The notes under the pieces were generated by a model. That model made no database searches and was not told the DNA's origin. It saw only the letters and a program-made list of their open reading frames with translations. DNA of 64,000 nt from Salminus brasiliensis. Its lineage: Eukaryota; Chordata; Actinopteri; Characiformes; Bryconidae. The DNA is taken from positions 33,802,080 to 33,866,079 of the forward strand of contig NC_132892.1 in NCBI RefSeq assembly GCF_030463535.1, in the 5' to 3' direction. How positions within the stretch are numbered: the first letter of the stretch is position 1; every line of letters begins with the position of its first letter. Positions 541 to 55,200 of the stretch are shown in pieces. The position numbers were made by a program, and so were the translations under genes.

Positions 541-1551
541 AAGTGACTGTCTTCAAGTGTTATAGGAGTACAGTTTACTCTGACCTAATAGAACTTTTTG
601 CTGAGTTCATGTTGCCCTTTTCCCACTCACTGGTGTGTCCTTTCTTGCCCAACATTGATAGATGTTGTACTCTTATAATTTATGAAGATATTTCTGTCTG
701 TTTTTTTCTAATGCAATTTTACAGAAATTTTAAACAAGTGCACTCATATTTGATAACTTACAACATGCCCTTCATATTTATCATGCATTTATTTTTCTGG
801 CCAATAGGTGGCAGTGTGTTCACTGAAAGTTTATTGAAAACCTTTGATATGAAGTTAAATCATAAGGGAAGAGAAAGCTGATCACAGATTAACTAAGAGG
901 CAACATCTATACGTTTTGAAATGCACTGATTTATGATATGCTTTGCTAATGGACCCTGAAGGTCTACAGGAGGGCTCATCAATTCAGGTCCTGGAAGGTC
1001 AGTTCCTTACTCAGTTTGGTATATTTCTTACTTAGACACACAGCTTCACCTGGTTATTAACTGCTGTTAAATAACTGCTGTTAAGTTTAATGAGGTATGT
1101 TTTAAGATGGACAAGACCCAAGCTGTGGTGGTCCTAGATTATTCATGAACTGACAAACATCTTAAGGTTTAAGATTTGGCAGTGAGCAGTACAATCACAT
1201 ATTTCAGAAACCTTAATTTAGGCAGGGACAGTGATTATCTTTCTAAATTTCTTGAGGTCAACCATATTATTTCCTTTTTGCATTTTATTTTATGCCATAG
1301 TGCCAGATTGGTCTCAATACTCCACTAGATGGGGCCCATTTAATTTGTGGTGCTGGTAGGAGTGGCAGTGACTGGATAAAATATGACATATTCCAAAGAA
1401 AGAGGATCCAACTAAACCCGAAGGGAAGTGGAAACAAAAACATACACATACAAAAAGAGTCCAGTAACACAAAAATCAGTTCAATTCAAGAAGATCTTAA
1501 GACCATCTGGAAAAGTGAATTGAATTTCTGTGTAGCTTATTTCAGTTCAGG
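541..1551. other. Upstream spacer of locus A
   Basis: No convincing gene is seen in this stretch. Open frames here are short and lack family resemblance. The last ~60 bases, ending GTTCAGG before the ATG at 1552, resemble the 5' leader of loci B to D (AAAAGTGAATTGAATTTCTGTG). The RUNX-like block found upstream of B to G is not present. Confidence 0.5.
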
Positions 1552-3203
1552 ATGAAGATTCTCCTCATCTTCACTCTCTACCAAGTCACAGGTGAGATAT
1601 TTAACATAGGTTGCTGCCAATGGCTCAGTAAATGCAGCTTGTTTAAGAATGTTCCTTCAAGTTTTATTCAGAGAGCTCTGAAAGGCTCAAGAAACCAACA
1701 ATTGCTTTTAATTGACTGTATTGAGTTGTGTCAATATTAGTGAAAGTGCAGCCTTAGGGATCAGTTTAAACTCATGAGCACTCATCCCTCAAAGCCACTT
1801 TTGGGCTAAAATAGCTTTGATCAATAAAAAATACAACTGTCAGATCATTATTTAAGCTAACGGTGATCTTCATAGCAAAAAAGACACTGTGATGAGCATG
1901 AAGACAGCACCGCATGGGGGCTGGGATGGGGGTTAGAACAGTCATGTGACTGACAGGGGCCCTAAAAATGCATTAATTGAGTATTTTGAAGAATTGTTAG
2001 AATTGTGGGCCCCAGTGTAACATCTTTTCATGGGGCCCCTGCATGAAGATCAGGGTTGAAAATATACCCAGTATTAGTTAGGTCTTGGCTCCTAGGTGAA
2101 GACTAGCTGTCCTGTCAAGACCAAGTCTAAATAAAAACCAAGACCAAGATGAGATCAAGACTCCATAAAATAATTTTCATACTTGAATTAGTCATTAACT
2201 GCAGTCCGAATTTCTCAATCTTCCTAGATTGGTTGAGCTATTAAAGTAAGCTTTCACATAGTTTATTACATAGCTACACAATATGTCTAAATGTTTGTGG
2301 ACACCCCTTCTAATTAATGCATTCTGCTACTTTATGTTACTCTAATTGCTGACACAGAAGTGTCACAACTTGTCTAGTCCCTGTAAGGTATTGCCATATA
2401 GAATAGGACTCTCTGGAGCAGATTAACATGAACCTATTGGCTCCATGCCTAATGCCAGGCATGGGCTAGAGGGGTATAAAGCCCCCCAGCATTGAGCTGT
2501 GGAGCAGTGATTCTGTATTCTCTGGAATGATGGTGGTGCTCCATCCAATACTTTTGGGATGAGTTGGGGATGAGGTGGGGTGGGCATCATCCAACATCCT
2601 GATCTCACTAAAGCTATTGCGGCTGAATGCAATCAAATCTTCACAGCAATGCCCCTCCAAAATCTACTAGAAAGCTGTGCTCCCTGGACAGTAGAGACCT
2701 CAACAAAAGCAGGATTAACTCTTTTAAATACCCTTGACTTGAAGAAACAGTGAATGAACAGGTGTCCCAAAACTTTTGTCCATATAGTGTAGCTGCTATA
2801 TATTTCCCCAATAATTAATTTTGTTATGATTGTATGGTTGACAGATGCCTGGAGTATAGAGTTAGTGACTGCACTCCTGGGAGACACTGTAACTATCAGC
2901 TGTAACTATCCAGAGGAATTCAAGAACAAACCCAAGTTTTTAGCCAAAAGGCACGATAACTCTTTTACAGAAGTGATCCAAACCACAGAGTTTCAGAAAG
3001 GCAGATTCTCCATCTTTGACGACAGAAAGTCCAACATTTTCACTGTAAACATCAGTGATGTTAGAGAAGCTGATATAGGAGGTTATTCGTGTAATGGAAA
3101 GAGTGTAAAATTGACCACCTTCAGGAGGATTGATCTCCAGGTTGTTGGTAAGATAATATTATATATATTTAGTAATATTGTATCCAGAATTTTTGAAGTA
3201 CCA

Positions 3204-7805: not shown

Positions 7806-8632
7806 ATAACAATCCCCAAAGCTTCTGGGAGAATGTCCTATGGATAGATAGGACAAAAATTGAACTTTTTGCCAAGGCACATCAGCTCTATGTTCACAGA
7901 TGGAAAAATGAAGCATATCAAGAAAAAAAAAAACACTGTCCCAACTGTGAAAGATGGAGGAGGCTGTTATGTTCTGGGGCTGCTTTGTTGCATCTGACAC
8001 AGGGTCCATTGAATCTGTGCAGGGTACAATGAAATCTCAAGACTATCAAGGGATTCTAGAGAGAAATGTGCTGCCCAGTGTAAGAAAGCTTTGTCTCAGT
8101 CACAGGTCATGGGTCTTGCAACAGGATAATGACCCAAAACACACAGCTTAATACACCCAAGAATGGCTAAGAGGAAAACATTGGACTATTCTGAAGTGGC
8201 CTTCTATGAGCCCTGACCTAAATCCTATTGATCATCTTTGGAAGGAGCTAAAACATGCTGTCTGGAAAAGACACCCTTCAAACCTGAGACAAGTGGAGCA
8301 GTTTGCTCTTGAGGAGTGGGCCAAAATACCTGCTGAGGGGTGCAGAAGTCTCATTGACAGTTACAGGAATCGTTTGATTGCAGTGATTGCCTCAAAAGGT
8401 TGTGCAACAAAATATTAAGTTAAGGGTACCATCGTTTCTGTCCAGGCCGGTTTCATGAGTTCAATAATTCTGTTGAAGCATAGTTGAAAATCAATGTCTG
8501 ACTTTCATTTGTTCATTTTCATAGCATTTTTATTTATTATTACTTTTGTCAGATTCAGGTTATTTCTGTGACCATTGTGGGCTTTTCTTTCATTAACTGA
8601 GGGGTACCAACGATTTTGTCCACGTGTGCATT
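7806..8632 (+). mobile_element. 5'-truncated Tc1-like transposon, transposase pseudogene
   Basis: Broken reading frames encode the catalytic half of a Tc1-family transposase: [13 protein letters not shown], then VMFWGCF, then LQQDNDPKHTA (second Asp region), then SPDLNPIDHLWKELKHAVWK (DDE third acidic region). Frameshifts at about 7950 and 8150 split it, and the N-terminal DNA-binding half is missing. The right end keeps GGGGTACCAACGATTTTGTCC, matching the inverted repeats of the copy at 53966-55520. Confidence 0.9.
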
Positions 8633-10202: not shown

Positions 10203-12177
10203 ATGAAGATCTTCCTCATCTTCACCCTGTACATGATCTCAGGTCAGATGTTCCATTTTAAATCTACAGATATTCTACAGCTAATATGACGCCATTGGCC
10301 AGGTCAACAACATAAGAATAGAACAGACACCTGTGTTGTTAAGCGTCAACCTACCCACTTACAGAGAGTAAGGCCAATTATGCTGTCTTGGGCTCGTCAG
10401 CACCGATAGCTGCATTAAAGGGAACTGAATTGAATTTGTTGGTGATCAGGGCAATACTTATATGGTTGCACCACTGAGCAGCAATAGTTACTTAGTTAAA
10501 AATGATCTTTAAAAAAATATTTAAATAGGTTTTGTAGTATTTCGACTGTGCACAACTAAGTCAACATAAAGCACTAATAAACAAAATAACATATTAGTGT
10601 AATCCAAAAATTACTTGAAGCCTGATCATTTTCAAAAAATACTTATTAAAGTATTTTAAAAATTATTAAGATTTATGGACAATAAACAACTTGTTAATAT
10701 TTTAAAATAATTTAGTACCTGAAAATAATATCATGGCCTAGAGTTCCACCACAGTTTTGTAATCTCCCTGATTTGACCCACCCATTTTACAAAGGATTCA
10801 ATTCATTTGAGTGGAAACTAACTGAGCTCAGTGTTTGTCCTCTAGGACCAGAAAAAACAATCATGACAATTTACATTAACAATTAAACATTATTAACTTT
10901 GTATTTTTTTTCCATTGATGGCTAAGGTCGTCCATTAAAGGTTCAGTCATTTTGAGTTCAGGGGCAGTGGTGACTCAGCATATAGTGCTGGGTTATTGAT
11001 CCAAGAGCTGTGGGTTCAATACCGGTGTCCGCAAAGTTGCCACTGTTTCGGCTTTCAGTAAGTTTCTAAAATCACAAGACTATGTAGAATTTGTGCCATA
11101 AAATAACAGCTTTGAGATCAGGTTGATGCTCTACTGACTGGTGCTATCTTTGCTACTTCGGGCTCAGTATCCTGCTCTTGCACTATGTAACTTTGGTAAA
11201 GCAGAAAGTGTCTCAAAGCATGAATTCCACTTTCCGACTGGAGGGGACGCCCAGGTGAAGGAAAAAACAAAACATTTGTGGCTTTAAAATTTGTCGCTCT
11301 GATCCAGGAATAACAAAAACATGTTGTACTGTAAAAATGTAGAATGTAAATATAAGTATAATAGCAATAAAACCATATTTCTCTTCTCTAAATACTTCCT
11401 CTTGATTGGCAGGTTCTGGGTCCTGCTTTGATGTGGTTGGCTATTCAGGAAGAAGTATCATTATAGCATCTAATCTGAAGTGGTCTTCAGTCTTTAAAAA
11501 ATACATTTTGAAGATTGACCAAAATAAGTGCATAAATAAAATACCCCCTGATCCCAGAAGTGATTGTGTTTATGATGAAAGATTCATGCTGTACACTTCA
11601 AGTAAAACAGGACATTTGACAGTGTTTATCAGAGGTCTGAACCCACAGGATGATGGAGTGTACAGGTTTGGAGTGGGGGCGTTGCAAAGTAGGGAAGTGG
11701 AGTTAAAGATTATGAACAGTGAGTGATGATATTCTTTCACCTTTCTCTTGTGTATTAAATATGTATAACCTATATCCAGTGTAACAGCACCACTGTTTGA
11801 TTGATGTTCTATACCTCAGGTATTTCTTCATATGATTGACAGGTGATTGCTGTGGGGGGATAAAAACACTGAATTGTTCTCAAGGAGAGACGCTCACTAT
11901 CAGCTGCAACTATCCAGAGCAGTTTCAGAATGACTATAAATCTTTTGTCAAACTGGATGATCATTCCGCTAAAGTGATCCTTAACACTGGAACAGAGTCT
12001 CAGAAAGGCAGATTCTCCATTTCTAATGACAAAAGGTCTAAAGTTGTCAGTGTGAGAATCAGTGATGTGAGAGAAGATGATAGAGGAGTTTATTTCTGTG
12101 GAGTTTCCAAGGGAACGGGTTCAGTGCGTTATTACCCTCTCTTCACAGAGATTCAGCTGCAGGTTACTGGTGAGATA

Positions 12178-12223
<46 letters not shown>

Positions 12224-13852
12224 GTAATCAGAACACATATGTGAACATATACACATTTGATATAAATAAATAAAAGTAAAAAAGTCTTTAAAATCATCTG
12301 TAATTAATAGAAAAGCTATTTTCTTTTGAGAAAAAGACAAATAGGATACCTTTTGCCCCAACATCTAAAATTACCACTTTTGTCTGAGATAACCTTAATT
12401 AGCCAGTCTCTGACATCAATGTGGAGAAAGTTCCTACTCCTCTATGCAGAAATCTTTCATCTGGGTGATGTTTCAGCATGAGTTTAAGGACACACAGTCT
12501 CACATTTTTCTCAGGATGATATAATAAAGATGTAACTGTAGATTTTGTGATAAGAGAACTCCCTCTTTCATTTTGTATTCATGTTAAATATGTTCAGGTA
12601 GAATTTCAGAGCTTTAGGCTTGAGACTACGAACTGAAACAGATGTGAAACTGAAGCATATCTTGTTAGATTAAGTGTTTGTGGTCTGTCTCTCAGCTCCA
12701 GATTCCTCCGTCTTCATCATCATCATCATTGCTGTAAGTGTCAGTGTGATTCTACTGCTGATCTCAGCATTAACACTGATCTTCCACCGACACTGCAAGA
12801 GAAAGGGTACTGTATCATAATCTATTTTATTATTTATTTTCTTTTATTATTTTTATTTTAATCTGTATTGCTGCTAATGAATGTTGCCACTATCTGTAAA
12901 TCACTTTGATCTGCCAGTATAAAACTGCTCTAGAAACAACAGTAGTTATTTATGTCACAAAGTGGTACAGAAGTGATAATAACCCTTTTGGCCTGTAGGC
13001 AGCCCATAGGCTTTTTAAGGGGTTAATAATCTCAGGGCTGTTTTGTGGGTGGACCTATGCTTGGGGTTTAAGTATTAGAACATGTTCCTTTCTTCTAAAA
13101 GGAGCTTACTTATTGCTTTCTCATGCTGTGTTTTAAAGTAAAGTAGCCTGGTTTCTTCCTTTAACCCCTTGCTACAATACTGCATATGTTTTAACAGGTT
13201 TTTTAAGAAAACCCACCTGTTTTTGTTCTACTTTTCCAGCAGGCTCAGACTCAATCAGTCAACAAAGACAAGTGAATAATACAGTAAGTGCAGAGGTTCT
13301 GTTCTCCACTCCACTAAAATATCAATACATACATAGAATAAACAAGCCATGCTCATGTGCATTTAGTAATTAGAGATAATTAAAGAAACTGAATAGCTGA
13401 CTCTAACTGGTTCCTGATTACATCACTAATGGCCATTTCATGTTTTGTATAAATAAATTATTTTCTAATTCCATTTTTAATTACTTTCAAATTACACCAG
13501 TTTCAAGTAATTTCTGTTGTCTAATTGTTTGACATTTCCTGATATGTACGCTGTATTCTGATTTCAGGCTGATGATTGTGAAGAAAATGATCTTTCAAGA
13601 AACCAGAACAGCATCAGCACAGCTGCATCCTCTTACACCCTAAATCCCAACACTAACCAATCAGATTCAGTCTACCAAAGTCTAATCCCCAACATTAACC
13701 AATCAGATTCAGTGTACCAAAGTCTAATCCCCAACACTAACCAATCAGATTCAGTCTACCAAAGTCTAATCCTTGACACCAACCAATCAAATTTCAGATA
13801 CCACAGCCTGAATTCAATACTACCCAATCAGATTCAAGGTACCAGAGTCTAA
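10203..13852 (+). CDS. Locus B: two-Ig-domain CD300/pIgR-like receptor with ITIM-repeat tail
   Basis: Exons are 10203-10242 (signal peptide), 11413-11718 (domain 1), 11843-12169 (domain 2), 12696-12806 (transmembrane), 13243-13283 (linker) and 13568-13852 (tail); they join to 369 residues with no stop. Domain 1 lacks both canonical Ig cysteines: the B-strand position is Ser and the F-strand reads GVYRFGVG. It keeps Cys in GSCFDV, NKCINK and SDCVYD. Domain 2 is canonical (TISCNYP, VYFCGVS) with an N-terminal DCC. The membrane segment is Ile/Val-rich. The tail has SSYTLN, three SVYQSL ITIM motifs and FRYHSL in 14-residue units. No stem exon is seen. Function as an inhibitory leukocyte receptor follows from family knowledge. 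Confidence 0.82.
10958..11060 (+). mobile_element. tRNA-type SINE head fragment in locus B intron 1
   Basis: GGGGCAGTGGTGACTCAGCA followed by GTGGGTTCAATACCGG resembles a polymerase III A box and B box pair. The same head recurs at 22355-22470 and, inverted, at 59240-59276. A degraded version is at about 16010-16070. Confidence 0.55.
12173..12223. repeat. (ATT)n microsatellite directly after domain 2 donor
   Basis: About 17 TTA units begin 4 bases after the splice donor of locus B domain 2. Homologous ATT or AAT arrays occur at 7145-7180, 18513-18557 and 19188-19219. Confidence 0.95.
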
Positions 13853-15278: not shown

Positions 15279-18092
15279 GTGCAGATCTTCCTCATCTTCA
15301 CCCTTTACATGATCTCAGGTCAGATGTTCTATTTTAATTCTACAGATATTATTTCTAATATGGCATCATTGATCAGGTCAACAGCATCAGAGTAGTACAC
15401 TAACTGCTAAATCTATGTCGGCTAATAGAAACCTATGTTGTTAAGCGTCAAGCTACCAACAATGATATCCCTGGTTTAAACAATTGCTCAGTCTGATCAC
15501 ATGTGCTTCAGCTTGGCTGGAATAAAAATTGCATACACACTGACCCTTTGCATAAGATTGGATACCCCTGCATTTTAAGTCAACAGATATCAAAATGTAT
15601 AAATCAAGATATTAAGTAAAACACAGTTAATTGAAGACAATAAATAATTAAGATTGGGCACCCCTGGCTTAAAGCATTAATAACTAAAAAGATTTAAAAA
15701 CATAACTTTATAACTTTATAATTCATGTCTGAGTTCCAGAAACAATTAATAATTAGAAAATATAACTTACTAGCTGAAAATAATTACATAGCACAGTTCC
15801 AGCAGAGTTTGATAATCTATCTGATGTGACCCTTCCAAAAAACATAAAAATGAACAGACAAACCAGATTACTGTGAGTGGGAAAACAACAAATGGTTCTC
15901 AGTGCTGGTTTTCCAGGACCACAAATGGAAAAAAAAATTATGGCAATTCATGTTAACAATGTAAAAAATATATTAATATTGGTTAGGAGGGTCTTCCATA
16001 AAAGGTTGAGTTGAGTTGTGGGTTCAATAACTGTGTCCAGAAAGTTGCCAATGCTGTGCCCAAAAGTAACACTAGGTAGCATTGTTCCTTTAAAAAAACA
16101 ACTTTAAGATCATTCTGACGATGTACTCACTGACACAGGAAATAGCATCTTTATCTTGCTACTCCAGGCTCAGTACACTGCTGCTGCACTAAGTAGCTCT
16201 GGCTAAGCAAGGATAACGCTCATGATAACTGCATAAGTTTAAAGTCCTATACGCTTTAAACGCTAGTGTAATTCCTGTAATTGTACTCTACCACCTCAGC
16301 CCACATGCTTCTTTACCTTTTAGTAATGGTTCAGCATCTCTAATGCAAAGTGTCTCCTTCTTTAAAGGTGGTGCAGAAAATGAATTCCTCTAAACCCAAG
16401 AGCAAGAAATAGCAGTTCTTACATAATGCTGTTTTATCTCTCTCTGATCCTGGATTGCTGTAGCATGACTGACCTAGTGCGCTTACAAAGAGAAGATAAA
16501 ATAATAATAAAAAATTGTATAATAACAATAAAGGCATCTTTATCTTTATCTAAATACTTCCTCTTGATTGGCAGGTTCAGGGTCCTGCTTTGATGTGATT
16601 GGTTATTCTGGAGGAACTGTCATTATACAATTTGATCTGTGGTGGTCCTCATCCCATACTAAATACATTTGGAAAATTGATCAAACTAAGTGCATAAATA
16701 AAATACCTCCTGACTCCAGAAGTGATTGTGTTTATGATACAAGATTCATATTGTACACTTCAAGTAAAACAGGACACTTGATGGTGCTCATCAGAGCACT
16801 GAAACCCCAGGATGCTGGAGTGTACATGTTTGGAGTGGGGGAGATGCAAAGTAGGGAAGTGGAGTTAAAGATTATGAACAGTGAGTGATGATATCCTTTA
16901 TCCTTATTTTGTGTATTAAATATATATATATATAACCTATGAATCCAGAATAACGGCACAGCTGATTCTGCTGTTCTGTAACTCAGGCGTTTCTTTATAT
17001 GATTGACAGATGATTGCTGTGAGGGGACAAAAACACTGAGTGGTTCTCAGGGAGAGACGCTCACTACCAGCTGCAACTATCCAGAGCAGTTTCAGGATTA
17101 CTATAAATCCTTATTTAAACTGGATGATCTTTCTATTACCGAGATCCTTAACACTGGAACAGGATCTCAGAGAGGCAGGTTCTCCATCTCTGATGACAGA
17201 AGCTCTTAAGTTCTCAGAGTGAGAATCAGTGATGTGAGAGAAGATGATGGAGGAGTTTATTCCTGTGGAGTGTTCATTGGAGAGGGTATAGAGGATTATT
17301 ACACCTTATTTACAGAGATTCAGCTTCAGGTCACTGGTGAGATACATTATGTTTGTATCATGACACAAATTGCAATCTTTAAAATAAAGGTACTACAAAT
17401 GGTTCTTCTGGAGATACCATAGAAGAACCTTTTTTGTTACATAAAGAACCATGATTATCAGAGAAATGAATATGAGTGTAAAGAACCTTTGAGGTAAAGG
17501 TTCTTTGTCAATTTAATGGTCACATCTCAACAAAAATGTTTATGTAACTAAAAGTGGCTCAAAAGGATCACTCAAAGAACCCTAATAGCACCTCACATGC
17601 AGTCATGTAAAGAAATTAGAACACCTCATGTCAACCTTTTTCGAACATATTAAAACATCTGGAATTTTGATCTTCATGTGATCAATACTGAGTGATGGAG
17701 GTGATATAACTAAACTCACACAACTGAGGAAATGTCTTTAAACATCATTTATAAAAATGGAAATTCACTAAAATGCAATATAAAGTTCTAGAGAGGAAAC
17801 GGTTAGAACACTCTATGTCCAAGTAGCTGGTATGTTTCAGTGATATTACCTTCATCTCTCAGTGTTGTTCAAATGAGGATCCAATCAGATGTTTAATCCA
17901 GATGTTTAAATATGGTGAATAGTCCTATTTCATTTACATGAATATTCATTACCATAGCACTCTTCTGTAAGCCTCGACTAAACTGTGACTCAGCACTGAG
18001 AAGACTACAGTAGAAGATTAGAAGACAATATTACTAAGAACCCAGAGAGCAGCAGCTTTTACTAGAACAAATTCTAATCAAATTTAATATTC

Positions 18093-21806: not shown

Positions 21807-24800
21807 ATGAAGATCTTCTTCATCTTCACCCTCTACATGATCTCAGGTCAGATAATCTATTATTATTCTACATGTATCCTAGTGCTAATATGACGTCACT
21901 GGCCGGGTCTTCAAGCTCAGAGTAGAACGCTAGCTTCCATTTCGACTAACAGACACCTTCATTGTTAGTCATTGAGCCATATCTTAAATATTTTTGCATG
22001 TTTTTACGCATTTAGATAAAGGATTTTACTCTATATGTTGACTTAGTCATGCATTTTGAACATTGCTTGAAACTGAAAGTTTGTGTCTTATAGAAACAGT
22101 AATAATGTCGTACGGAGTTCCAGCACAATTTTGTAAAGTCCTTGATCCGGCTCTCCCGCTAAACCTAAAAACTTACAGACAAATCAGATTTATATCAGAA
22201 AGAAAAAAACAAAGCTGTGCTCAATGCAGGTGTTCCAGAACCAGAAAAAAAACTATCATGGAAATTCATGGTCATGATTGAATAAATAATAACACTGTAT
22301 TTACAATCATTTAATTGGTGGTGAGGCTTCAACTGAAGGCTCAACGAGGCTGAGTTTAGGGGCAGTGGTGGCTCAGCATAGAGTGCTGTATTATTGATGA
22401 CACGGTTGTGGGTTCAATATCTGTGTCAGCTATGTTGCCACTGTTGGGCCTTTCAGCAAGTTCCTTAGCTCTCTATGATCCAGGGGTTCTGCAGCATGGC
22501 TGATCCAGTGCTCTGAAAAAGAGAAGCATTTTGTTGTATTGTAGAAGTGTGTAAATGATACATTTATTAGTATAATGACCATAAAGACTTCTTCCTATTT
22601 CCTCTTGATTGGCAGGTCCAGTGTCTTGTCTTAATGTGTCTGGCTTTTCTGGAGGAGGTGTTGTTATAGACTCTGATCTGGCATGGTCCTCATCCCATAC
22701 TAAATACATTTGGAAAATTGACCAAAATAAGTGCATAAATAAAATACCTCCTGACTCCAGAAGTGATTGTGTTTATGATACAAGATTCATATTGTACACT
22801 TCAAGTAAAACAGGACACTTGATGGTGCTCATCAGAGCACTGAAACCCCAGGATGCTGGAGTGTACATGTTTGGAGTGGGGGAGATGCAAAGTAGGGAAG
22901 TGGAGTTAAAGATTATGAACAGTGAGTGATGATATCCTTTATCCTTATTTTGTGTATTAAATATATATATATATAACCTATGAATCCAGAATAACGGCAC
23001 AGCTGATTCTGCTGTTCTGTAACTCAGGTGTTTCTTTATATGATTGACAGATGATTGCTGTGAGGGGACAAAAACACTGAGTGGTTCTCAGGGAGAGACG
23101 CTCGCCATCAGCTGCAACTATCCAGAGCAGTTTCAGAATTACTTTAAATTATTTGTCAAACTGGATTATCTCTCTATTAGGGAGATCCTTAACACTGGAA
23201 CAGGATCTCAGAGAGGCAGGTTCTCCATCTCTGATGACAGAAGCTCTAAACTTCTCAGAGTGAGAATCAGTGATGTGAGAGAAGATGATGGAGGAGTTTA
23301 TTTCTGTGGAGTGTTCATTGGAAAGGTTTCAGAGGGTTACTACACCTTCTTCACAGAGACTGAGCTACAGATTTCTGGTGAGATTGGTGAACATTATCAA
23401 GTATAACAAGTATCATGAGACAAACTATAATATTCTCCAGATGAGATTGAATGAACGGTAGAGGAACATACACCCCATTGAAACCTTACACCTATTAAAA
23501 CATCTGGAAATTTTATCTTCATGTGATCAATATGGAGTGATGATGGAGGTGATATAACTAAACTCACACAACTGACGAAATGTCTTTAAACATTATTTCT
23601 AAAATGGAAACAATAGAAATGCCATGGAAATTTCTAAAAAGTTCTAAAAGGTTAGAACACCCTATGCCCAAATATCTGGTATGTTTCAGTGGTATTACCA
23701 GTTTAGTGGTAAATCAGATGTTTATTACAAATGTTTAAATATGCTAAACACTGTGTCCTACTTAATTTACTTTACTCTACAATAATATCCTTAACACTTT
23801 GTAGGCTTTGACTAAACTGTGTCTCAGCACTTAAAAGACTAGAGTTAAAGATTAGAAGATGATATAACTAAGCTTTTACACATAACAGCTTTTAATAGAC
23901 CAATTTTCTACATTCAACTTTAATATATATTTACACTATTCAGATTATAATTGCTTTTGAATTATTTTTTTCCACTTGATCTTCCTCCAGCAAGAACATC
24001 AGCAGCACCAACAACAGTCATCACCTCTGTTGAAGAACCTTCCAGTAAGAACCTCTTTCATTCTATATTCATGTTAAATGTATTCAGGCGGAGCTTCAGA
24101 GCTTTAGGCTCCACACCAGGAAATGGAACAGAGCTGCAACAACAGCTGTATGTTCCTGGTTTGAGGAGGTGTTTGTGGTCATGCGTGATACATTTTATGA
24201 TTGTTCTTTCTTTCTATCAGATACAGGTTTCTCTGTCATCATCACCATCATCATCATTATCATCATCAGTGTGAGTGTCTGTGTGGTTCTGCTGCTGATT
24301 GGAAGACTAACACTGATCTTCTACAAACATTGCAAGAGACAAGGTACTATTACTCCCACCAGTGGCATAACAAGTCATTGAGGTGCCTCCCTCAATCTGA
24401 GGCAACAGATCTAGCTGCAACAGGTCTAATTAACTTAAAGCCAAGGTCAGGGAAAACTTTTGCACATATCCCACTATGCCCTGTAGATGGCACCAATATG
24501 TATTTCACTATTATTTCCCTAAGCTTATTGTTCAGTTTTGTCCAGTGTTCATGGGTGCTGGGCGTTGGAAAGTCTGTTTAATTTTAATACAGGTTTCAAA
24601 GGGTGCTCTGGTACAATATAAGAATCTCTGTTGGTGAAACTGTGTATTTTATTTAGACCAACTTCAGAATAAAGTGCTATATAGCTGAGTAATTCGTTTG
24701 TATGGCGTACCTCTGAATAATCATAAAACCTAGGTCTTTTGAGTTTTTTTTACCCATTATAACCCACATCACTTATTTGCCTCACTGAATTTATTTTGAT

Positions 24801-25726
24801 GATCATCATACAATCAAACAATATGTATACAACAGGGTCTGTTTTATGTATCAAGACTCTCATACCCTCAAAATCGTATTAAGTCAAAAAGTGTTTTTAT
24901 TACTAAAAAAGTATGCTATTAAAACTCCTAAACTTTATTTTTTCACTGATATTATTTGTCTTTGTCTATTTGATTAATACTATGTTAATATGTGTTGCTG
25001 ATAATGAATATTACCACAGTCTGTAAAAAATTCAAATCTGCTACCTCTATAAAAACTGCCCTAGAAACGAAGGTTATTATCATTAATAAAAGCATAGGTT
25101 TGTGAGTTGGAGGTTGTCCACCATCACCAGGGTTTTAATGCAGATTAATAAAGCCCCAATCAAAGGCCAATGCTAATGTGTTAAAGTTGGAAATCAATGT
25201 CTTGTGCACCAACCTTTTCTCGTTTTCTGCAGACTCGGATTCAATCTGCCGGCAAAGAGAAAGAAATAAAGTAAGTGTAAAATATATCAGTGTGTGAATT
25301 CTTACCAAAAGCTTCTATCCACTACTTTAAAATAATCAATATACTGTGTATATAATCAACCCTGCTCATGTATATTTAGTCTATAATTACAGAAACTAAA
25401 AAAACTGATGGAATGTGCATCATTCTCTGACTGACATTAAATGTTATTTTTTGGAAATGTTGATTTAAATTTCTAATTACATATAATTTTGTTTTGTTTC
25501 TTTCCCATCTCTTAATCTGTGCTGTGTGCCACTCTGATTTCAGGCTGATGGTGATTATGAAAATGATCCACCAAGAAACCAGAACATAAGCATATTTGCA
25601 GTCTCTCACACCCTGAACCCCAACACCAATCAATTAGATTCACAATACCAGAACCTAAACCTGAACAGCAACCAATCAGATTCAACATACCAAACTTTAG
25701 GCCCTAGATGGATAAGATTGAAGTGA
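21807..25726 (+). CDS. Locus D: two-Ig-domain CD300/pIgR-like receptor, ITIM tail
   Basis: Exons are 21807-21846 (signal peptide, MKIFFIFTLYMIS), 22616-22921 (domain 1), 23051-23377 (domain 2), 23991-24044 (Thr/Pro stem), 24221-24343 (transmembrane), 25233-25270 (linker) and 25544-25726 (tail), giving 356 residues in one frame. Domain 1 lacks both canonical cysteines (Ser at the B strand, YMFGVG at the F strand) but keeps Cys in VSCLNV, NKCINK and SDCVYD. Domain 2 is canonical (AISCNYP, VYFCGV). The membrane segment starts with a run of Ile. The tail has DYENDP (Y-x-N, a Grb2-type SH2 site), SQYQNL and STYQTL (both ITIM-like). AATAAA lies at 25757-25762. It is the intact near-twin of pseudogene C. 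Ligand unknown. Confidence 0.85.
22355..22470 (+). mobile_element. tRNA-type SINE head fragment in locus D intron 1
   Basis: GGGGCAGTGGTGGCTCAGCA then TTGTGGGTTCAATATCTG give A-box-like and B-box-like motifs. It sits in the position corresponding to the fragment at 10958 in locus B, so the insertion predates duplication. Confidence 0.55.
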
Positions 25727-25837: not shown

Positions 25838-25930
25838 CATTCAGAGAGGTCAAGATGTTGGATGTTCACCACCCCCCTCATCCCAAACTCCCCAAACTCA
25901 TACCAAAAGTATTGGATTGAGCTCTTAATT
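25838..25930 (+). mobile_element. MITE fragment
   Basis: GTTGGATGTTCACCACCCCC and CAAAAGTATTGGATTGAGCTC come from the middle of the recurring MITE; neither terminus is present. Confidence 0.55.
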
Positions 25931-26098
25931 TTGAGAACAGGAGCACGGTTCTCCATCTCTGAGAACAGAAGGTCTAAAATTGTCAGTGTGAGAATCAGTG
26001 ATGTGGGAGATGATGATAGAGTTTGTTAATGTGGAGTGTGGTTTGTAATGACTCAAGTCAGTGATTACTCTTTCTACTCAAAGATTCAACTACATTCA
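25929..26098 (+). pseudogene. Relic Ig domain 2 exon (locus E/F type)
   Basis: The stretch aligns with the second half of an E/F-type domain 2. TTCTCCATCTCTGAGAACAG corresponds to FSIS.D.R, AGAATCAGTGATGTGGGAGA to RISDV, and GGAGTGTGGTTTGTAATGAC to GVWF. It ends at a degraded CAAAGATTCAACTACA. The F-strand cysteine region reads GTTTGTTAATGTGGA, with small deletions and a stop. No other exons of this gene are seen nearby. Confidence 0.75.
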
Positions 26099-32940: not shown

Positions 32941-34195
<1,255 letters not shown>

Positions 34196-38582: not shown

Positions 38583-40090
38583 GAATCAGAATCAGAATCA
38601 GAATCTCTTTATTTCACCAAGTATGTTACACATACAAGGAATTTGTCTTGGTGAGAGCAACACGTATGACAAGTAACAAAAAACACAGAACACAGTCTTA
38701 AACTAAAGGAAAATTACACTAAACAGTAAATAGGGTAGGGGATAAATTAAAAAAAGTAAAAAGTACTACAGGTAATAAAGAGATGATATTTACAGAAAGT
38801 TAAGAGCTGATATTTACAGAAATGAACATCTGTACAGTGTGCAAATAGACAGAGTGCAAAATAGCTGTTCAGTCCGGTTTGGTATAGTTCAGTTGTATGT
38901 TTTGAGGTTTACAGTGGGAGGTGTTCACTGTGGTTGAGGAGCGCTACAGCTTTGGGGAAGAAGCTGTTAGCATGACGTGTTGTGCTGGTTTTGATGGACC
39001 GCAGTCTTCTACCAGAGGGGAGTGTCTGGAAGAGGAGGTGTCCAGGATGTGAGGGGTCAGATGTAATCTTGCCAGCCCGCTTCCTCACCCTGCTGGTGTA
39101 GATCTGTTGAAGTGATGGCAGGTTACATCCTATGATCCTCTCTGCTGTCCTGATGATGCGCTGGAGTTTGGTTCTTTCTTGTGAGGTGGAGGAACCAAAC
39201 CAGATAGTTATGGAGGCTGTGATAATGGACTCGATGATCGCTGTGTAGAACTGGATCATCAGGGTCTGTGGCAGGTTGGATTTCTTGAGCTGTCTCAAGA
39301 AGAACATTCTTTGTTGAGCTTTCGTGATGATGGAGATGGTGTTTTTCTCCCATTTCAAGTCTCTGGAGATGGTGGTGCCCATGACTCCACCATGGATACT
39401 GCAGTGTTGTTGATGTGGAGGGGGGGAAGGGGGTGGATTGCGTCGGAAGTCCACCACCATCTCTACAGTCTTTTCTGTGTTTAGCAGCAGGTGGTTGTTG
39501 CTGCACCAGGACACCAGCTGCTCAATTTCCTTTCTGTAAGCAGACTCATCACCGTTGGCTATGAGGCCCACCACAGTGGAGTCATCTGCAAATTTCAGGA
39601 TCTTTACAGCTGGATCTTTGGAGACACAGTCATTAGTGTAGAGGCTGAAGAGAAGGGGTGAAAGAACAACCCTGTGGGACTCCAGTACTGAGTGTCCAGA
39701 GGTCTGAAGTGTGCTTCCCCAGCCGCACCTGCTGTCTTCTGTCTGTCAGAAAATCCATGATCCACCGACACATGGAGTCTGGCACTGACAGCTGGGAGAG
39801 TTTGGCCTGAAGAAGCTGCGGCACAACAGTGTTAAAGGCCGAGTTAAAGTCCACAAACAAAACCCTAGCATAGTTTCCATGGCTGTCGAGATGTTGCAGG
39901 ATAAAGTGCAGGGTCAGGTTGACCACATCGTCGACAGACCTGTTTGCTCGGTATGCAAACTGCAAGGGGTCCAGCAGGGGGTCTGTGATGGACTTCAGGT
40001 GGGCTAGGATCAGGCGTTCAAAGACCTTCATGACTACAAAGGTCAGGGCGACAGGCCTGTAGTCATTCAGTCCAGTGCTGGCATCTTCTT
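38583..40090 (-). mobile_element. LINE (CR1/L2/Rex-like), 5'-truncated, reverse transcriptase pseudogene
   Basis: On the minus strand, frames read KVFERLILAHLKSITDPLLD, FAYRANRSVDDVVNLTLHFI, ARVLFVDFNSAFNTVVPQLL and STGVPQGC (40031-39633), then VGLIANGDESAYRKEIEQLV, NHLLLNTEKTVEMVVDFRR and the RT C-terminal region (39574-38909). A frame break at ~39630 falls in the catalytic YADD region, which is not intact. The 3' end at 38583-38605 carries a GATTCT tandem tail. Clade assignment is tentative. Confidence 0.85.
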
Positions 40091-40577: not shown

Positions 40578-43500
40578 ATGAAGATCATCCTCATCTTCAT
40601 CTCCTTTTACCTGATCACAGGTCAGTTATTCTACTTTAATACAGTATGCTTTGTATGATCTGGCTTCTTAACCATGTAGAACTGTAGAAGAGAACTGATT
40701 TAGAGACAAATGGGTCAAAAATGTTAGTAAGAGTTAGTTAGTAGTTAGTAATTAAAGTACCTTTAATTTGATTGGCAGGTCGATTGGACTGTGCTCATGT
40801 CATTGGCTACTTAGGAGGAAGTGTTATGATCTACTGTAAAGATCCTGGTTATGGAAATCAGAAAAAATATTTTTGTAAGGAGGCAAGAGAAGGTCAGTGT
40901 GTGAATAAAACAGTGACTGAAGTCCAAGGCAAATGGGTTGATGCAGACAGACTATCTCTGGGTGATGCACATGGAGAGAACTTTACTGGATTCCTAACAG
41001 TGATCTACAGACAGCTGAGTTTAGAAGATGCTGGATTATACCAGTGTGGAGAGTCTGGAGTGTGGAATCACACTGTAAACCTGACAGTGGCTACAGGTGA
41101 TGGAATTTCCTAACTTTTAAAAGTTTACAACTGTGTAATTTGTAAAGTCAGTTTTCACACTGAACATGTACTTAACACACAGATCCAGGTTATTTGGGGC
41201 CAAAGACTGTGACTGGTTATTTGGGAGAGACCATCACCATCAGCTCTTCCTATCCAGAGGAGTTTAAGGTATACAGCAAGTTGTTCTACAAGAAGTATGG
41301 TCAATATTTTACTGCGATGGTCAGCACCTCTGAGACTCAGAAAGCCAGATTTTCCATCTCTGAGGACAGGAGGTCTAAAGTGGTTAGTGTGAACATCAGT
41401 GATGTGAGACAAGATGATGAAGGAGTTTTTTTTTGGGGAATGGTGAAGGGAGGGAATTCGGTCGAATATTTCTCCCTCTACTCAAAGATTTGGCTACACA
41501 CAACCAACAGGGACACTTTACCAGCTCCAACAGCAACCACACCTGAAAAACAACAGTTCAGTAAGTCATTTTCCAGAACCTCCACTATCTGTCACTATGT
41601 CTGACCCTTCCTTTACTGTCTATTTACTGTCCTTTACTTACATCAGCTGATCTGGATCTCATGGTCTCGGTAAATCTATTGGCAGAGCTGACTAACCTAT
41701 GGATCCACACGAGTACCAGATCAGCAGAATCTAAGAAAGGACTTAGTATACAGTCGGTGGTTAGTGGTTGGCAGTAGCCTGACCTAAACACTGCCTCACT
41801 GAGCTCCACAATATTTTATTATTTGACAGTTTGGTACCTTCTGAGAGTGTAGGAACTAAACTCTTACTAAAGCTGCCAGAGGCGTGGCTCCTTTCAGATA
41901 TCTTTCTTTTACTTTGTGACTCATATTTGACATCACTTAAAGCCCACACAAGCTTCTCTTTAAGTTCAGAAAACCTGTAAAAATCTTTTTCCACAGGATG
42001 TGATGAAACATTCACCAACATGTCAATTCACCCATGATTGATATAATCTAGGGTTGTTGTTAAGGTAAAAAGCACTAGAATTTTTACAGATGCTGGGGAG
42101 ACATGATGGATTCAATGAGATCTATTAGTAAAAGTATCAAAGTATGGCTTAAGTGTACAGCCTGGGGTTCTGTGGTTTAGCTCTCCACTCTGCACCATGT
42201 GCTTAAATGTAAGTAAAGCTGGAGGGCAGTAAATGAATATAGACTCAATATAGGAAATATACTGACATTGTCTTTGGAGTGGTCCTTTTTTGGATTAAAT
42301 AAACACTCATTAGATGCTCAGTAAAATCTCTGCACCATCTTAGAAATGGAGCAGAATCTGAATTTTCGGTAGATTAGCATTCTACTGAATTCAGATGTTC
42401 TTCACTTTATTTGTCCAAGTTCAGATCTGTAGACATTCACCTGAGTTGGGTTAGGTTTTGGGTTGAGGTTAAGGTTAGGATTAGGATCAGGGTTAAGGTT
42501 AGGTTTTGGGTTGGGGTTAAGGTTGGGATTAGGGGTTAGGTTGTGGGTTAGGCAGGGCGAGGATATAAGGTCTACTTAATGTAACAGATAAACAGTAAAT
42601 TTACTGCATGTCATTAAAGCATCAACAGAACATCTTTAGGACCTTTTTCTCAGTGTACTTAGGTGCTGCACTTATCTGCTATTGATGTGTTACTGATAGT
42701 CTGTTAAGAGTTTATTCATCTTCTATAAAGGACCACTCCAGATAAAGTACAATCAAATTTATGTACAGTATATAGCGGCCATGTATGCAAAATGCTTGTT
42801 CATGTCTCCAGGGTCCTCATTCATCACTGTGAGTGTCTGTGTGGTTCTGCTGCTGGTTGGAGGACTGATACTGATCCTCTACAAACTAAGATCCAACAAG
42901 ATAGAAGGTACTGCTCTCTCAGCTCTCTCTCTTGCAACAGGGCAAATATTTCATGACCTTTTGATTAGATCTACTTCGTTACTCAGAACCGGCAACATGA
43001 TTCATTTCAGGGGTGGTTTTTCAGATAAAAGGGTTTGATAACCATCTGTTTGAAAGGTAGTAAAGTGGTCTCTTAAACTGATTCAATGTGCAGTTTACTG
43101 TCATTTTTCCAACCCTGAAATACACTATATTGTCAAAAGTATTGGGACACTGGTTCGTTCATTGTTTTTTTTTTTTTTCTGAAATCAAGTGGGATTAAAA
43201 AGAGCTGATCCTGCTTTTGTTGGAGTAACTGTCTCTACTGTCCAGAGAAGAAGACTTTCTACTAGATTTTGGAGCCGCATTGGATTGCAAGGATTTGTTG
43301 GATAATCACCACCCCACCTCATCCCAAAAGTAATGGATGGAGCATCACCCTCATTCCAAAGAACACAGTTCTTCCACTGCTCCACAGCCCAATGCTGGGG
43401 GGCTTTGTACCCCTCTAGCCCACACCTGGCATTAGGCAGCATGGTGACAATAGGTTCATGTTCATAGACAGGGTTCTGTGATTTAGGGCTCAAATAGTCA

Positions 43501-49272: not shown

Positions 49273-52200
49273 ATGAAGGTCCTGCTCATCTTCACCCTCA
49301 ACCTGATATCAGGTCAGATATTCTACTCTAATTAACAGTCCTTGATTATACTAAATATTACAGTTTGCAAATTTCACAGTAACTGTAAAAGTGTAGAATT
49401 TTTAAAGACAGTTTTGAGATAGATACCTTGACATGCCTTGAAATTTCTAAATTGTTCTCCTACCTATAGAACAATGGGCCCCATTCACCAACATCATCCT
49501 AGGGATTTTCTTAACAGAAAGTCTAGGTCAGATTCAAGATGTGTTTTGAAGAGCAGAATTGTTCACAGCTCTGCTCTTATGATGATGGATCCCATTGTCC
49601 TGCCAAACTGGAAATAAAAACAAAATAAGAAAATACTGGTGGATGTCAGAATATTTGTAAAAACTGTGTAAGTAGGTTTAAGAAGAACATTATTCGTATG
49701 AATGGTAGGAGAATAAGGACTCTTTACACATAAGTTGTTGCACATTGTTACACACTAAGGCATGTTATTCAGTAATGACAGGAGCTTCTAGTTGGGCTAT
49801 GCTTTGGTAAACGTTTATAATAACATTTTAGGCTTAATACATTTAAGATTAATCCCAAAGTGCTACATTTGCATGTATTGAGCACAAACTCAGCAGTAAT
49901 AATATAATTAATCTATTTTAATTAAAATAAACTCAAAAAATGGTCCTAAGTTTTTCTGAGGTTACTGAGATGAATGAAATGTTTTCTATTTGTTGGCAGG
50001 TCTGGTCACCAGCTTTGATATCATCGGCTACTCTGGTGGTAGCGTTATTATAGTTCACTATTGGTGGAGCTCAAACAGTCTGAAGTATATTTGCAAGTGG
50101 GAGGACAATTCCTGCAAACAATATATACACTCTAATACACAAGATGGCATTGGTCATGTAGAAAAGTTTTCACTGTATAATAATCCACAAAGATACTTTA
50201 CAGTGTTGATCAGAGAGCTGGACCCACAGGATGCCGGAACATACAAATTTGGAATTTTGTATCACAGGCAACAATCTCAACTTTTTAATCTAAAAGTTAA
50301 GGAAGGTAAGGAAACTTGGATCAAGCAAATATAAAGTGTATAATATTGTGTTACACACTAAATTTCTGTTTTTTTTTGTTTTTTTTTTTGTTTGGCAGAT
50401 ACTTGTTGTGTGAAATCTATAAGTGTGACTGGTCATCTGAAGGGGAATGTTGTCATTAGTTGTGACTATCCAAAGGAGCACCAGGGGGAAAGGAAATACT
50501 TTATCAAGCTGAAAGATCAAACACTTGATTTTGTCATTTACAGTAGTTCAAATAAAAACTTTAAGAAGAAACAATTTTACATTTCTGATGATATTCATTC
50601 AAATATTTTCACTATAAGCATCAGTGATGTGAGTGAGGAAGACGGAGGAGTCTATTTCTGTGCTGTATGGACTGATAGACACCGATTCTACAGCATCTCT
50701 ACATTCAAAACAGTCTACCTACATGTTACTGGTAAGAACATCCACTCAACATGTATTTCATTCATTTTGGACAAGTTTAGACAATGTTGGTCCACAAACC
50801 ACCTTTAGTATCATATTTAAGTAAGTGTGTCATGTACATTATTTATCATGGTTAATTTGATTGAAAAAAGAAAAATCAAACAGATCAAAAAGGCAACTGG
50901 CCGAAATAGATAATTTACTAGAAAACAAAGGCTCTGTATGCAACTTTATATAAATATATTTTTCTTACACTTTTTGCTCTGCATTTTAAATTGGATTGAA
51001 CTTTTAATTTGATTGGTGTCCATTGATATAGTTAGTAAAAAAAACAATACAAAATAGAATGCAGATTGATATATGTAAACATGCAGAATGTGACAAATTT
51101 AAACTTTGTTAAATGCTAAAATAGCCATAATATCATCATCACAATCACACAAAAGCCCTGTATCTTCGAAATGGCAGCTTTACAGGAGGACAACCTTCTT
51201 AACTTTCAATGGACATCAATGTAAAAAGTAACTTTGAAGAATTCCATTCCATTCATCATTAATAATTGGACATAATGTAAAAATTACTGCCAGATATTAT
51301 GTGAAAAATATGAACAAAACAATATGAAAAAACATTGAGATACAAGGCAGTGACAGTGACAACAAGTGAAAGGAGACAGCAGTGTACTTTATAAATAGAA
51401 CTTTGTTACAATGCCATACTGTAGTGTTGATCTACCTTAAAAAGAAATATGTATTCTTATATTTTATTGGATTGAAAATAATACATAAATAAAGGAACAG
51501 ACTAATCATGTCATTTCATTCATTTGACAGATAGGGTGGCTACAGTCACATTGGCTGGATTCTTAGGAGGATGCATCATGATGGAATACAAACACCCTCA
51601 AGAAAGCCATGAAGCCAGATTCATCTGTAAGGAATCACAAGAGAAATGTTTGGAAAAAACGTATATTAAGATGCAGAATAAATGGGAGCAAAACAGAGAA
51701 TTTTCTTTGTACGATGACACCACTAGAGAGTCCTTAATGGTGTTCTTCAGGAATGTATCAGAAGGGACCTACAGGTGTGGAGTGAACAAAACACAGTTTA
51801 CTGAGCAGTACATAGAAGTGAAAATGGAAGTGAAGGAAGGTATGAAATGGTCTGCTCTGTCCGCCATGCCAAAATCAGCAAAGGTCCTTGCTAATTTTAG
51901 GTTTGTATTCACACCTTTCAGATCCTTGTTGTGGGAAGGTGATCTCACAGGCTGGTTATCTCGGTGAAACTGTTAACATCACCTGTCAGTATCCACCAAC
52001 ATACCGATTTAATCCAAAACACTTCTGCAAGGAGGACGAGGATCACATCTGCCAAAACATCAGCCCTTTCAGAGCTACTGGGAAGTATTCATTTTCTGAC
52101 CACAGCCAAGCAGAATTGCTCAAAGTGTCCATCAGCAATCTGACCCTCAGCGATGCAGGAGTTTACTGGTGTGGAGTAGAAACCAGTGAATGGTACATTA

Positions 52201-55200
52201 GTTACGCTTCTCTGACCACAAAAGTGCAAATCAGCATTAAATGTAAGTACACATTGAGATAACCACGTCATTCTATTTCACATGTATAGCATTTATCAGA
52301 AGCTCTTATCCAGAACTCTACACAGTTAGGAGGATGTAGAGTCAGGAGTTCTAGCCAAGGACTCTTATTGGTGTAGGCCACTATGCTAACAATAACCACC
52401 AGACTGACAGATTGAGTCCTGTAAAAATAATATTACTAGTTTAGTACTACCAGTTACAGCACTTCTCAACTGCTAATTTAAAGTCATATCAATCACAATT
52501 GCAGTGTCTGTATTGACAATTATTAATAATTATGAGCAACATGACATTGAGTAATCTGATTATTAAAATGGTCATACTCTGATTTCTTAGATTGGATTAA
52601 GGCCTGGAAATCTGATTAAGAAACCCAACAAAGAGTTGGATTTTAGCTTGTTAATTATTAGTAATTATAGTATATAAACTATATTGTAGTATTATAGTAT
52701 ATTATAGTAATTATTGCATGCATTTCTTGTATTTACTATGTTTTTCTCAGTTTGTGCATGTACAAAACGCAGTATTACGTCTTTTAGAAAAATATTTCAA
52801 AATATATTAAACTTCCATATTTCTTGGTAAAGTAACACTCAGCATGGCGCCTGTTTACAGATAAAGTTGCGCCCTTCAGCAAAAACATTCAATCAGCTTT
52901 CTGGTCATGCCGTGTCAGTGTGCTAGTGGGGACAACCCCCCTCGACGTGGAGATGTGCATGAGCGTAGTAGCCAGAACACACTGAAAAATCCATCTATAG
53001 TGCATTATTGAGGCAAACGCTTTGGTCTCTGCCTATTCATAGAGATAGAATCCTGGTTTTGTGTGGCTGGAAATAACTGCACGGTGGCGTTGCAAAAATA
53101 GTCATCAAGACTTGCTTATAATATTATCATATTTACAAAAAGCTGCAGCAGGAAGTTTGAAGTTTATTTGACATGCTTCCGTAAGATCACTGGCTGGTTG
53201 TAAAGTAGACATTTGATTATTGCCATTATGTAAACATGTATCTGCTTATCTAAGTGCATGCAAACACATTGATCAGATTACTGACTAAATTTAATTTTCT
53301 GCAGTGATTGAGAAATGTTCCAGAAATGAAAAATAATTGCTGACAGCAATTTGTCCCATATCAAGAGATAAAGTGGGCTTTGGGTGGACTTTTATAGGCA
53401 ATTCTAGTATGACCCATGAATCACTGGTTTGAATCCCAGGTCATGCTGAAATTAGAAAGCTGGGTACCCCATGCTTTCCTCCAAGCTCCTTGGTTGCCTG
53501 GTGATGTTGCATCAGTTGCAGTTTAAAAAGAAGTGGTGGGTTGTTACTTATGTGTCAAAAGGAGGCATGCGCCTATCCTCACCCTCCCAGTGTCGGGAGC
53601 ATTACATGTAATGGGGAGAGTGGGTTGGGTAATTGGTTATTCAAATTAGAATGAAAATTGGGTACAGATTAAAAAAAAATCTAGTAGTCCTAAAATATGT
53701 TGTAATACACTCTAAAATCACTAGAACATACCCTAAAACCACCAGTAAATGTGTGTGGCAATTTTTATACTTTTCTTAGATGTTGTTCAATTTTTGCCAA
53801 ATCAAAATGGAAAGTGTAAAATTCATATCTTGGCCTGGTTTTAGTGTGAAGTGAACCAAATGTAAAAATTGCTCATACAAATAAAAAAAGTGTTATTTAA
53901 TCTAATAAAACATTTTAATTGATCAAACATCACAGGGTCATCACTGTTAATTAAATAATTTAAATACACACGTGGACAAAATTGTTGGTACCCCTCGGTT
54001 AATGAAAGAAAAACCCACAATGGTCACAGAAATACCTTGAATCTGATAAAAGTAATAATAAATGAAAATTCTATAAAATTTACTAATGAAAGTCAGACAT
54101 TGCTTTTCAACCCTGCTTCAACATAATTATTTTAAAAATAAACTCATGAAACAGGCCTGGACAGAAACGATGGTACCCTTAACTTAATATTTTGTTGCAC
54201 AACCTTTTGAGGCAATCACTGCAATCAAACGATTCCTGTAACTGTCAATGAGACTTCTGTACCTCTCAGCAGGTATTTTGGCCCACTCCTGAGCAAACTG
54301 CTCCAGGTGTCTCAGGTTTGAAGGGAGCCTTTTCCAGACAGCATGTTTCAGCTCCTTCCAAAGATGCTCAAAAGGATTTAGGTTAGGGCTCATAGAAGGA
54401 CACTTCAGAATAGTCCAATGTTTTTAGCTGTGCATTATCCTGTTGCAAGACCCATGACCTGCGACTGAGACCAAGCTTTCTGACACTGGGCAGTACATTT
54501 CTCTCTAGAATTCCTTGATGGTCTTGAGATTTCATTGTACCCTGCACAGATTCAAGACAGCCTGTGCCAGTTGAACCAAACAGCCCCAGAACATAACGGA
54601 GCCTGCTTCATGTTTCACAGTAGGGACAGTGTTCTTTTCTTGATATGTTTCATTTTTCCATCTGTGAACATAGAGCTGATGTGCCTTGGTAAAAAGTTAA
54701 ATTTTCGTCTCATCTGTCCATAGGACATCCTCCCCGAAGTTTGGGGCTTATCAACATGTAGTTTGGCAAATTCCAGTCTGGCTTTTTTATGATTTGTTTT
54801 TTAAACAATGGTGTCTTCCTTTGTCGTCTCCCATGAAGTCCACTTTGGCTTAAACAACGACGGATGGTGTGATCTGACACTGATGTTCCTTGAGCTTGAA
54901 GTTCACCTTTAATCTCTTTAGAAGTTTTTCTGGGCTCTTTTGTTATCATCCATATTATCCATTTCTTATCATTTTTCTCCTGCGGCCATATCCAGGGAGG
55001 TTGGCTACAGTCCCATGGATCTTAAATTTCTGAATAATATGTGCAACCGTAGTCACAGGAACATCAAGCTGCTTGGAGATGGTCTTATAACCTTTACCTT
55101 TAACATGCTTGTCTATGATTTTCTTTCTGAGACAACTCTTTCCTTCACTTCCTCTGGTCCATATTGAGTGTGGTACACACCATGTCACCAAACAGCACAG

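Follow-up and report, generated by a model that had tools for sequence, protein, structure and literature searches.

The membrane-distal V domain (D1) of four receptor loci in Salminus brasiliensis, loci B, C, D and H, has lost both cysteines of the canonical disulfide bond and probably rests on a different cysteine pair and a repacked core. We consider it quite likely that these are distal receptor V domains in which the bond between the B and F strands (B-F) was lost, the covalent staple was kept (H) or moved (B, C and D), and the core was repacked. The observations behind this explanation are the anatomy of the genes, their grouping in one clade, the open frames and the predicted fold. The loci lie in the window, the whole stretch of 64,000 nucleotides that was analyzed (C15:33802080-33866079, in a genome of 1,066,335,885 bases). 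Positions without the C15 prefix are counted within the window.

Receptor genes in the window

Locus B reads as a complete type I receptor ORF of 370 amino acids, encoded by the following exons:

10203..10242, + strand: locus B leader exon (MKIFLIFTLYMISG), with an ATG and a donor, joined in frame
11413..11718, + strand: locus B V exon D1, without canonical cysteines; Cys4 (N-terminal), C' Cys39 and new Cys51
11843..12169, + strand: locus B V exon D2, canonical cysteines present, without the C-C' pair
12696..12806, + strand: locus B transmembrane exon
13240..13283, + strand: locus B cytoplasmic exon 1
13568..13852, + strand: locus B cytoplasmic tail exon with three SVYQSL motifs

Locus C is a pseudogene, with a changed start codon (near 15272) and a stop in its second V domain:

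16575..16880, + strand: locus C D1, canonical cysteines lost (Phe/Phe); the gene is broken elsewhere
17010..17336, + strand: locus C D2, with an in-frame stop

Locus D again reads as a complete receptor ORF (356 amino acids), and its tail carries the motifs SQYQNL and STYQTL:

21807..21846, + strand: locus D leader exon
22616..22921, + strand: locus D D1, canonical cysteines lost (Ser/Phe)
23051..23377, + strand: locus D D2, canonical cysteines present
23991-24044, + strand: locus D connecting-peptide exon
24221-24343, + strand: locus D transmembrane exon
25233-25270, + strand: locus D cytoplasmic exon
25544-25726, + strand: locus D last cytoplasmic exon with stop, its end counted from the 356-amino acid ORF

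The B and D ORFs both describe a type I receptor with an ITIM-type tail. We take the SxYxxL motifs in these tails to be ITIMs, and from them the two receptors are probably inhibitory.

Several smaller features lie around these genes. A decayed V-domain fragment with a stop is found between loci D and E (25907-26095). Locus A (1519-3147) has a leader-like ORF and a D2 exon, and no D1 exon for it was among the scan hits. Five ORFs between receptor genes (8152-8418, 33081-33747, 54184-55215, 38909-40109 and 46660-47325) resemble pieces of Tc1-type transposase and reverse transcriptase.

Loss of the canonical cysteines

The D1 exon of locus B (306 nucleotides, phase 1-1, open frame) is flanked by TTGGCAG on the acceptor side and GTGAGT on the donor side. 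At the B- and F-strand cysteine positions it has the codons TCT (Ser) and TTT (Phe), as does D1 of locus D, and locus C has TTT (Phe) at both. In H D1 the F-strand codon is TTT (Phe) and the B-strand position is not a cysteine; the residue there is Val or His, according to the placement of a one-residue gap. The D1 domains of the neighboring loci E, F and G have TGC or TGT at both positions.

This codon check upholds the initial annotation, which had reported the paired loss in locus B together with C, D and H, with Ser/Phe/Ser/His at the B strand (His in H under one of the two gap placements). The F-strand motifs are YRFG, YMFG, YMFG and YKFG and the tyrosine-corner region P-Q-D-[AD]-G-x-Y is retained in all four, also as reported. 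The B-F pair is absent as well from a further copy of the clade upstream of the window (C15:33794769), which has one codon deleted and an altered F-strand end (YRLQ). Chance is not at issue in this agreement because B, C, D and H are paralogues.

The symmetrical phase of the exon means that the frame survives skipping, and mature transcripts without D1 would encode effectively one-domain receptors. We think this very improbable: B, C, D and H all have intact splice sites, and the frame has long stayed open, which skipping would not preserve.

Four-domain genes and further losses

The gene at locus H was read up to its fourth V exon:

49273..49312, + strand: locus H leader exon
50000..50305, + strand: locus H D1, canonical cysteines lost, C-C' pair kept (CKWEDNSC)
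50399..50731, + strand: locus H D2, canonical cysteines present
51531..51839, + strand: locus I D1, B-strand Cys lost (Tyr), F-strand Cys and C-C' pair kept
51922..52242, + strand: locus I D2, both cysteine pairs

A hydrophobicity scan gave no membrane segment over threshold at 50732-51530, between H and I, and no leader was seen there by eye. Because of this, locus I probably continues the H gene, which would then have four V domains, the two of locus I being D3 and D4. Locus J, with two further V exons and, near 57841, a membrane segment, may or may not be part of the H/I gene; additional hydrophobic readings of the scan fall at 52698 and 55400-55530.

A second gene of this kind, M, lies on the reverse strand outside the window (C15:33899087 to about 33903135), with four V exons and a candidate membrane segment after them. 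Its D1 and D3 have lost both canonical cysteines and its D2 and D4 keep them, an alternation much like that of the H/I gene. Locus K (L067, C15:34013668-34013973) is a third domain of D3 type, with the B-strand Cys lost and the F-strand Cys kept. Across this D3-type lineage (I_D1, M_D3 at C15:33899912, and K) the B-strand Cys is lost in 3/3 and the F-strand Cys in 1/3, and in I_D1 and K the F-strand Cys is left without its canonical partner.

At locus G, D1 is normal and D2 is probably decaying:

41183..41560, + strand: locus G D2, both canonical cysteines (Ser/Trp) and the C-C' pair lost; the usual donor is absent and the next in-frame donor comes after 41560

Survey of V domains in the genome

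Queries of the genome with B_D1, H_D1 and one D3 domain gave at least 32, 56 and 47 matches, respectively, the best candidates being scored. Most relatives among the matches listed fall in the part of C15 around 33.55-34.42 Mb; others lie on C11, at a single place on C70 and at a single place at C15:32.09 Mb. We compared 84 V domains, a sample made up of 46 of the 55 hits in a 264-kb region (200 kb around the window; the other nine, shorter than 88 amino acids, were dropped) plus 18 and 20 from 38 short stretches fetched for part of the matches. Rows with stops (one upstream, and C_D2) were kept with X, as was the apparently frame-shifted L044. The D3 domain of locus K stands outside this count.

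Both canonical cysteines are kept in 74 of the 84 domains, both are lost in 8 and one is lost in 2. With the C' Cys accepted within one column of its place, the domains fall into these states:

both pairs: 61/84
canonical pair only: 13/84
canonical pair lost, C-C' kept: 3/84 (H_D1, M D1 and M D3)
canonical pair lost, C' Cys kept and a new Cys: 4/84 (B, C, D and the upstream copy)
B-strand Cys alone lost: 2/84 (I_D1 and L037)
neither pair: 1/84 (G_D2)

The full canonical pair has been lost at least in the clade of B, C, D and H, in M_D3 and in G_D2, and the loss in M_D1 may be a separate one. Paired loss as a general rule was rejected, with I, K and L037 having lost the B-strand Cys only. A second site at C11:35498821-35886202 holds D1-like domains of the family, and all five that were fetched (L062-L066) have both pairs. 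Two D1 domains, L029 and L044, have Arg/Asp in place of the C-C' pair and still have the B-strand Cys; L029 clearly has the F-strand Cys too, and L044 seems frame-shifted there.

A broader reading, which we offer tentatively and think rather doubtful, is that D1 and D3 have repeatedly dispensed with the canonical disulfide under selection, with a C-C' or C'-C'' bond and a repacked core taking its place, while D2 and D4 keep theirs. If that were true, the choice of disulfide would be an evolving trait, and the distal domains would perhaps be looser and sensitive to redox or force.

Ancestry of the D1 domains

In a tree of 64 domains, calculated without the four cysteine columns, H joins B, C, D and the upstream copy (96/82.7), and I_D1 pairs with M_D3 (100/97.8); the tree program flags the first of these groupings as a meeting of two long branches, H and the B/C/D group. 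Trees that include the cysteine columns agree (96/92 with 19 domains and 93/91 with nine D1 domains). M_D1 as a sixth member of the clade has a p-AU of 0.156, and H with M_D1 alone has 0.0935.

Given one clade, the canonical loss in B, C, D and H is probably one event, and the four loci that had been put forward as repeated evidence do not amount to fourfold evidence. Four independent losses are rejected by these trees. Loci C and D share a stretch of about 250 bases (about 16722-16968, and 22763-23009 in D), the D1-D2 intron included, with 100% identity; in the first half of D1 the identity is 74-86%. The identical stretch looks like a gene-conversion tract, so that C and D are not independent. 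Positive selection for the divergence of C and D was rejected in view of the same pattern.

Remaining cysteines and the second pair

Three cysteines are left in D1 of B, C and D: one near the N-terminus, one in the predicted C' strand (residue 39) and one at residue 51. E, F, G and many further D1 domains also have the N-terminal Cys. Leu or Trp now stands where the C' Cys would have its C-strand partner, and the new Cys lies 12 residues past the C' Cys. It is present in 4/4 of B, C, D and the upstream copy, and the loss of the C-strand Cys coincides with it in the same four domains. H D1 retains the pair C-KWEDNS-C (residues 31 and 38). The C-C' pair typical of the pIgR/CD300/NILT-like group is thus present in H_D1, and in B, C and D its C' half is found with the new Cys.

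In view of this arrangement, H most likely retains the second bond after loss of the canonical one, and B, C and D probably moved the second bond to C'-C''. The description of these domains as disulfide-less in the initial annotation is not borne out by the sequence, with the C-C' pair of H and the C' and new cysteines of B, C and D. A V domain that is fully disulfide-less, held by its core as in CD2 and with its cysteines free or inter-chain, would fit the odd number of cysteines in D1 of B, C and D, and also the N-terminal Cys, which occurs in many cysteine-bearing D1 domains and so is not specific to the swap. It is an improbable account, with a C-x6-C pair in H at the place of the relatives' C-C' bond and a new Cys that is fixed where the C-strand Cys is gone.

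Several D2 and D4 domains start with Cys-Cys at the junction (11843-11870, 23051-23080, 30097-30120, 50399-50420 and 51922-51945). Many D1 domains have an N-terminal Cys, and an inter-domain or inter-chain bond is possible.

The clade also has its own core residues: W23 and I31 in 5/5 and F85 in 4/5. The changes comprise a new Trp four residues past the B-strand position, Ile in place of Phe at a core C-strand position, and Phe or Leu at the F-strand position.

Predicted fold and family

AF2 models of B_D1 and H_D1 have nine strands in V order (pLDDT 78.9 and 76.6; pTM 0.71 and 0.70), from an input that included cysteine-bearing paralogues and with a program that is drawn to the V fold. At the level of prediction, the V fold said to be kept in these domains is therefore present, with D-[AD]-G-x-Y retained. 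The models match CD300lf, NKp44, TREM-1 and teleost pIgR among other V domains. The best Foldseek match of B_D1 is CD300lf (E 8e-4), both models match teleost pIgR PDB 5f1s, and CD2 is not among the best 50 structure matches.

By sequence, B_D1 and H_D1 match cysteine-bearing pIgR/CD300/NILT-like paralogues in the same genome. F_D1 matches pIgR best (3e-10, the best stretch being domain 4) and also CMRF35-H (CD300a; 2e-4), and I_D2 matches pIgR (6e-21). CD2 and SLAM were not among the matches listed for these two query domains, which excludes nothing. On these matches we place the D1 domains in the pIgR/CD300/NILT-like group. C_D1 (17.2 bits) and H_D1 (20.6 bits) are below the gathering cut-off of the Pfam V-set family PF07686 (26 bits), a Pfam search at E 0.01 finds nothing for B_D1 and D_D1, and F_D1 (26.4 bits) and B_D2 (48.8 bits) are over the cut-off. 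Searches that rely on two cysteines can miss such domains: 0/4 of the tested D1 domains pass.

Selection on the domain

By the Nei-Gojobori method, D1 of B compared with C and D has an omega of 0.51-0.52 (dN<dS with a resampling support of 0.98 and 0.985), C and D give 0.69 (support 0.715), and B, C and D against H give 0.39-0.51; the values are 0.39-0.62 for D1 of E, F and G and 0.72-0.80 for D2 of B, C and D. A small codon likelihood, tested against an omega of 1, gave 0.71 for D1 of B, C and D (p 0.27), 0.64 for B, D and H (p 0.08) and 0.65 for B, C, D and H (p 0.07). It gave 0.79 for D1 of E, F and G and 0.80-0.92 in the three sets of D2 domains, and in none of all these sets is omega significantly below 1. 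Three omega classes give no better fit on seven D1 domains (2dL 0.26). D1 evolves like the rest of a fast family; dN/dS alone proves neither constraint nor decay, and constraint on D1 of B, C, D and H is weak or mixed.

Frame retention is the stronger argument, and it speaks against decay. B, D and H each have an open D1 frame with its splice sites in place. We simulated neutral substitution without indels in 4000 runs, with D as the ancestor and branch lengths set from dS. With these chosen branch lengths and an observed sequence (D) as ancestor, the neutral probability of no stop in D1 is 0.0003 or less when B, D and H are taken together, and 0.0225 when H is left out; the expected mean in the three lineages is 7.9-9.4 stops and we found 0.

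Relaxed constraint would have the distal D1 drifting, carried along by selection on D2, the membrane segment and the tail. The likelihood values of omega are compatible with this, as are the pseudogene at locus C of the same clade, a relic with stops at C15:33790432, and the codon deletion and altered F-strand end of the upstream copy. We nevertheless find drift unlikely, though less so than the skipping or disulfide-less accounts. The cysteine-bearing D1 domains of E, F and G and the three D2 sets are no more constrained, the expected stops are missing, the core substitutions are common to the clade, and the D3 lineage is constrained.

The D3 domains have an omega of 0.34-0.45, with dN<dS in a fraction of 1.00 (to two decimals) of 300, 297 and 292 resamples, and the cysteine-bearing D4 domains of the same loci have 0.51 and 0.45. 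The best indication that this family keeps V domains without the canonical bond comes from the D3 lineage, in which the F-strand Cys is retained in 2/3 copies. The proposal of a stable lineage rather than random decay is thus borne out in part, by the single clade, the open D1 frames, the complete ORFs of B and D, the shared core and the predicted V folds, and is weakened by the pseudogene at C and by likelihood values that do not reach significance. For D1 of B, C, D and H, the B, D and H comparison that had been suggested as a check included, the values do not cleanly exclude near-neutral evolution, which had been named as the refuting outcome. Such evolution is better excluded for the separate D3 lineage.

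Proposed course of the cysteine exchange

In the explanation that we favor, D1 would be the ligand-facing distal V domain of probably inhibitory type I membrane receptors. In this genome the domains of the family mostly have two pairs, and the older C-C' bond may have made the canonical B-F bond dispensable. The canonical pair would then have been lost in one ancestor and the core repacked. In H the C-C' pair would simply have been retained; in B, C and D its C-strand half was lost and a new Cys arose 12 residues further on, probably shifting the covalent staple to C'-C''. D1 would still be V-folded, sit on a D2 with a normal pair and present ligand-binding loops, and ligand binding would be signaled via the tail. 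We infer the bonds, the packing of the core, ligand binding, inhibition and signaling, the order of events and the role of the second bond in making the first dispensable.

If this staple swap is true, closely comparable proteins of one gene family exist in several cysteine states (two pairs, the canonical pair alone, the C-C' pair alone, a rewired set, and none, the last in one probably decaying copy), and the loss of the canonical bond from a V domain, together with its replacement, becomes testable.

Comparison with known receptors

Crystal structures of pIgR have the canonical B-F bond together with a C-C' bond in human D1, D3, D4 and D5; in the part of that source used here, teleost pIgR has the C-C' bond in both domains and human D2 is without it (PMC4786434). 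Tandem V domains with C-C' as a second pair are common to pIgR, or secretory component, and the genes described here, and the described absence of C-C' from human pIgR domain 2 has its like among the domains here. In pIgR, to the extent of that description, the canonical bond is present and C-C' is optional, whereas here the canonical pair is the one that was lost. The SxYxxL tails of B and D are a further difference from pIgR.

Inhibitory tails occur in part of the CD300/CMRF35-like family. It shares the predicted fold and the two cysteine pairs with the domains studied here, although CD300 has a single V domain. CD300 is described with two disulfide bonds, and carp SITR as secreted, with a single cysteine pair in its N-proximal domain, in the part of the same paper used here (PMC3031540). 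Carp SITR, as described there, is unlike the membrane receptors B and D in being secreted.

Teleost NILT genes form tight tandem clusters with one or two V-type domains, ITIM tails and pseudogenes beside intact copies; the extra cysteines of salmon NILT are CX3C, CX6C or CX7C, and canonical cysteines are found in all domains reported in the part of that source used here (PMC3022915). The tandem cluster, V-type domains, ITIM tails, extra cysteines and pseudogenes are all alike in the window. The difference from the reported salmon domains lies in D1 of B, C, D and H, where the canonical cysteines are lost.

SLAM-type V domains are also known to lack the canonical bond, and CD2 domain 1 is not known to have a C-C' pair. 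CD2 is a named exception, a natural V domain without the canonical bond, in the part of the source used here (PMC12051499). CD2 domain 1 has the same lack of the canonical bond as the D1 domains here and belongs to a different family.

Descriptions of the pIgR/CD300/NILT type, as far as these sources were used, have the canonical pair present and the second pair variable (PMC3022915, PMC3031540, PMC4786434). Among the matches listed in the open-access literature, we recognized from titles and the starts of abstracts no report of V domains of this group without the canonical pair. Within the group, a canonical pair lost with the second kept would be novel, as would a second pair that is shifted. 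V domains that lack the canonical bond are already known, and the case is unusual for its family rather than a new kind of domain.
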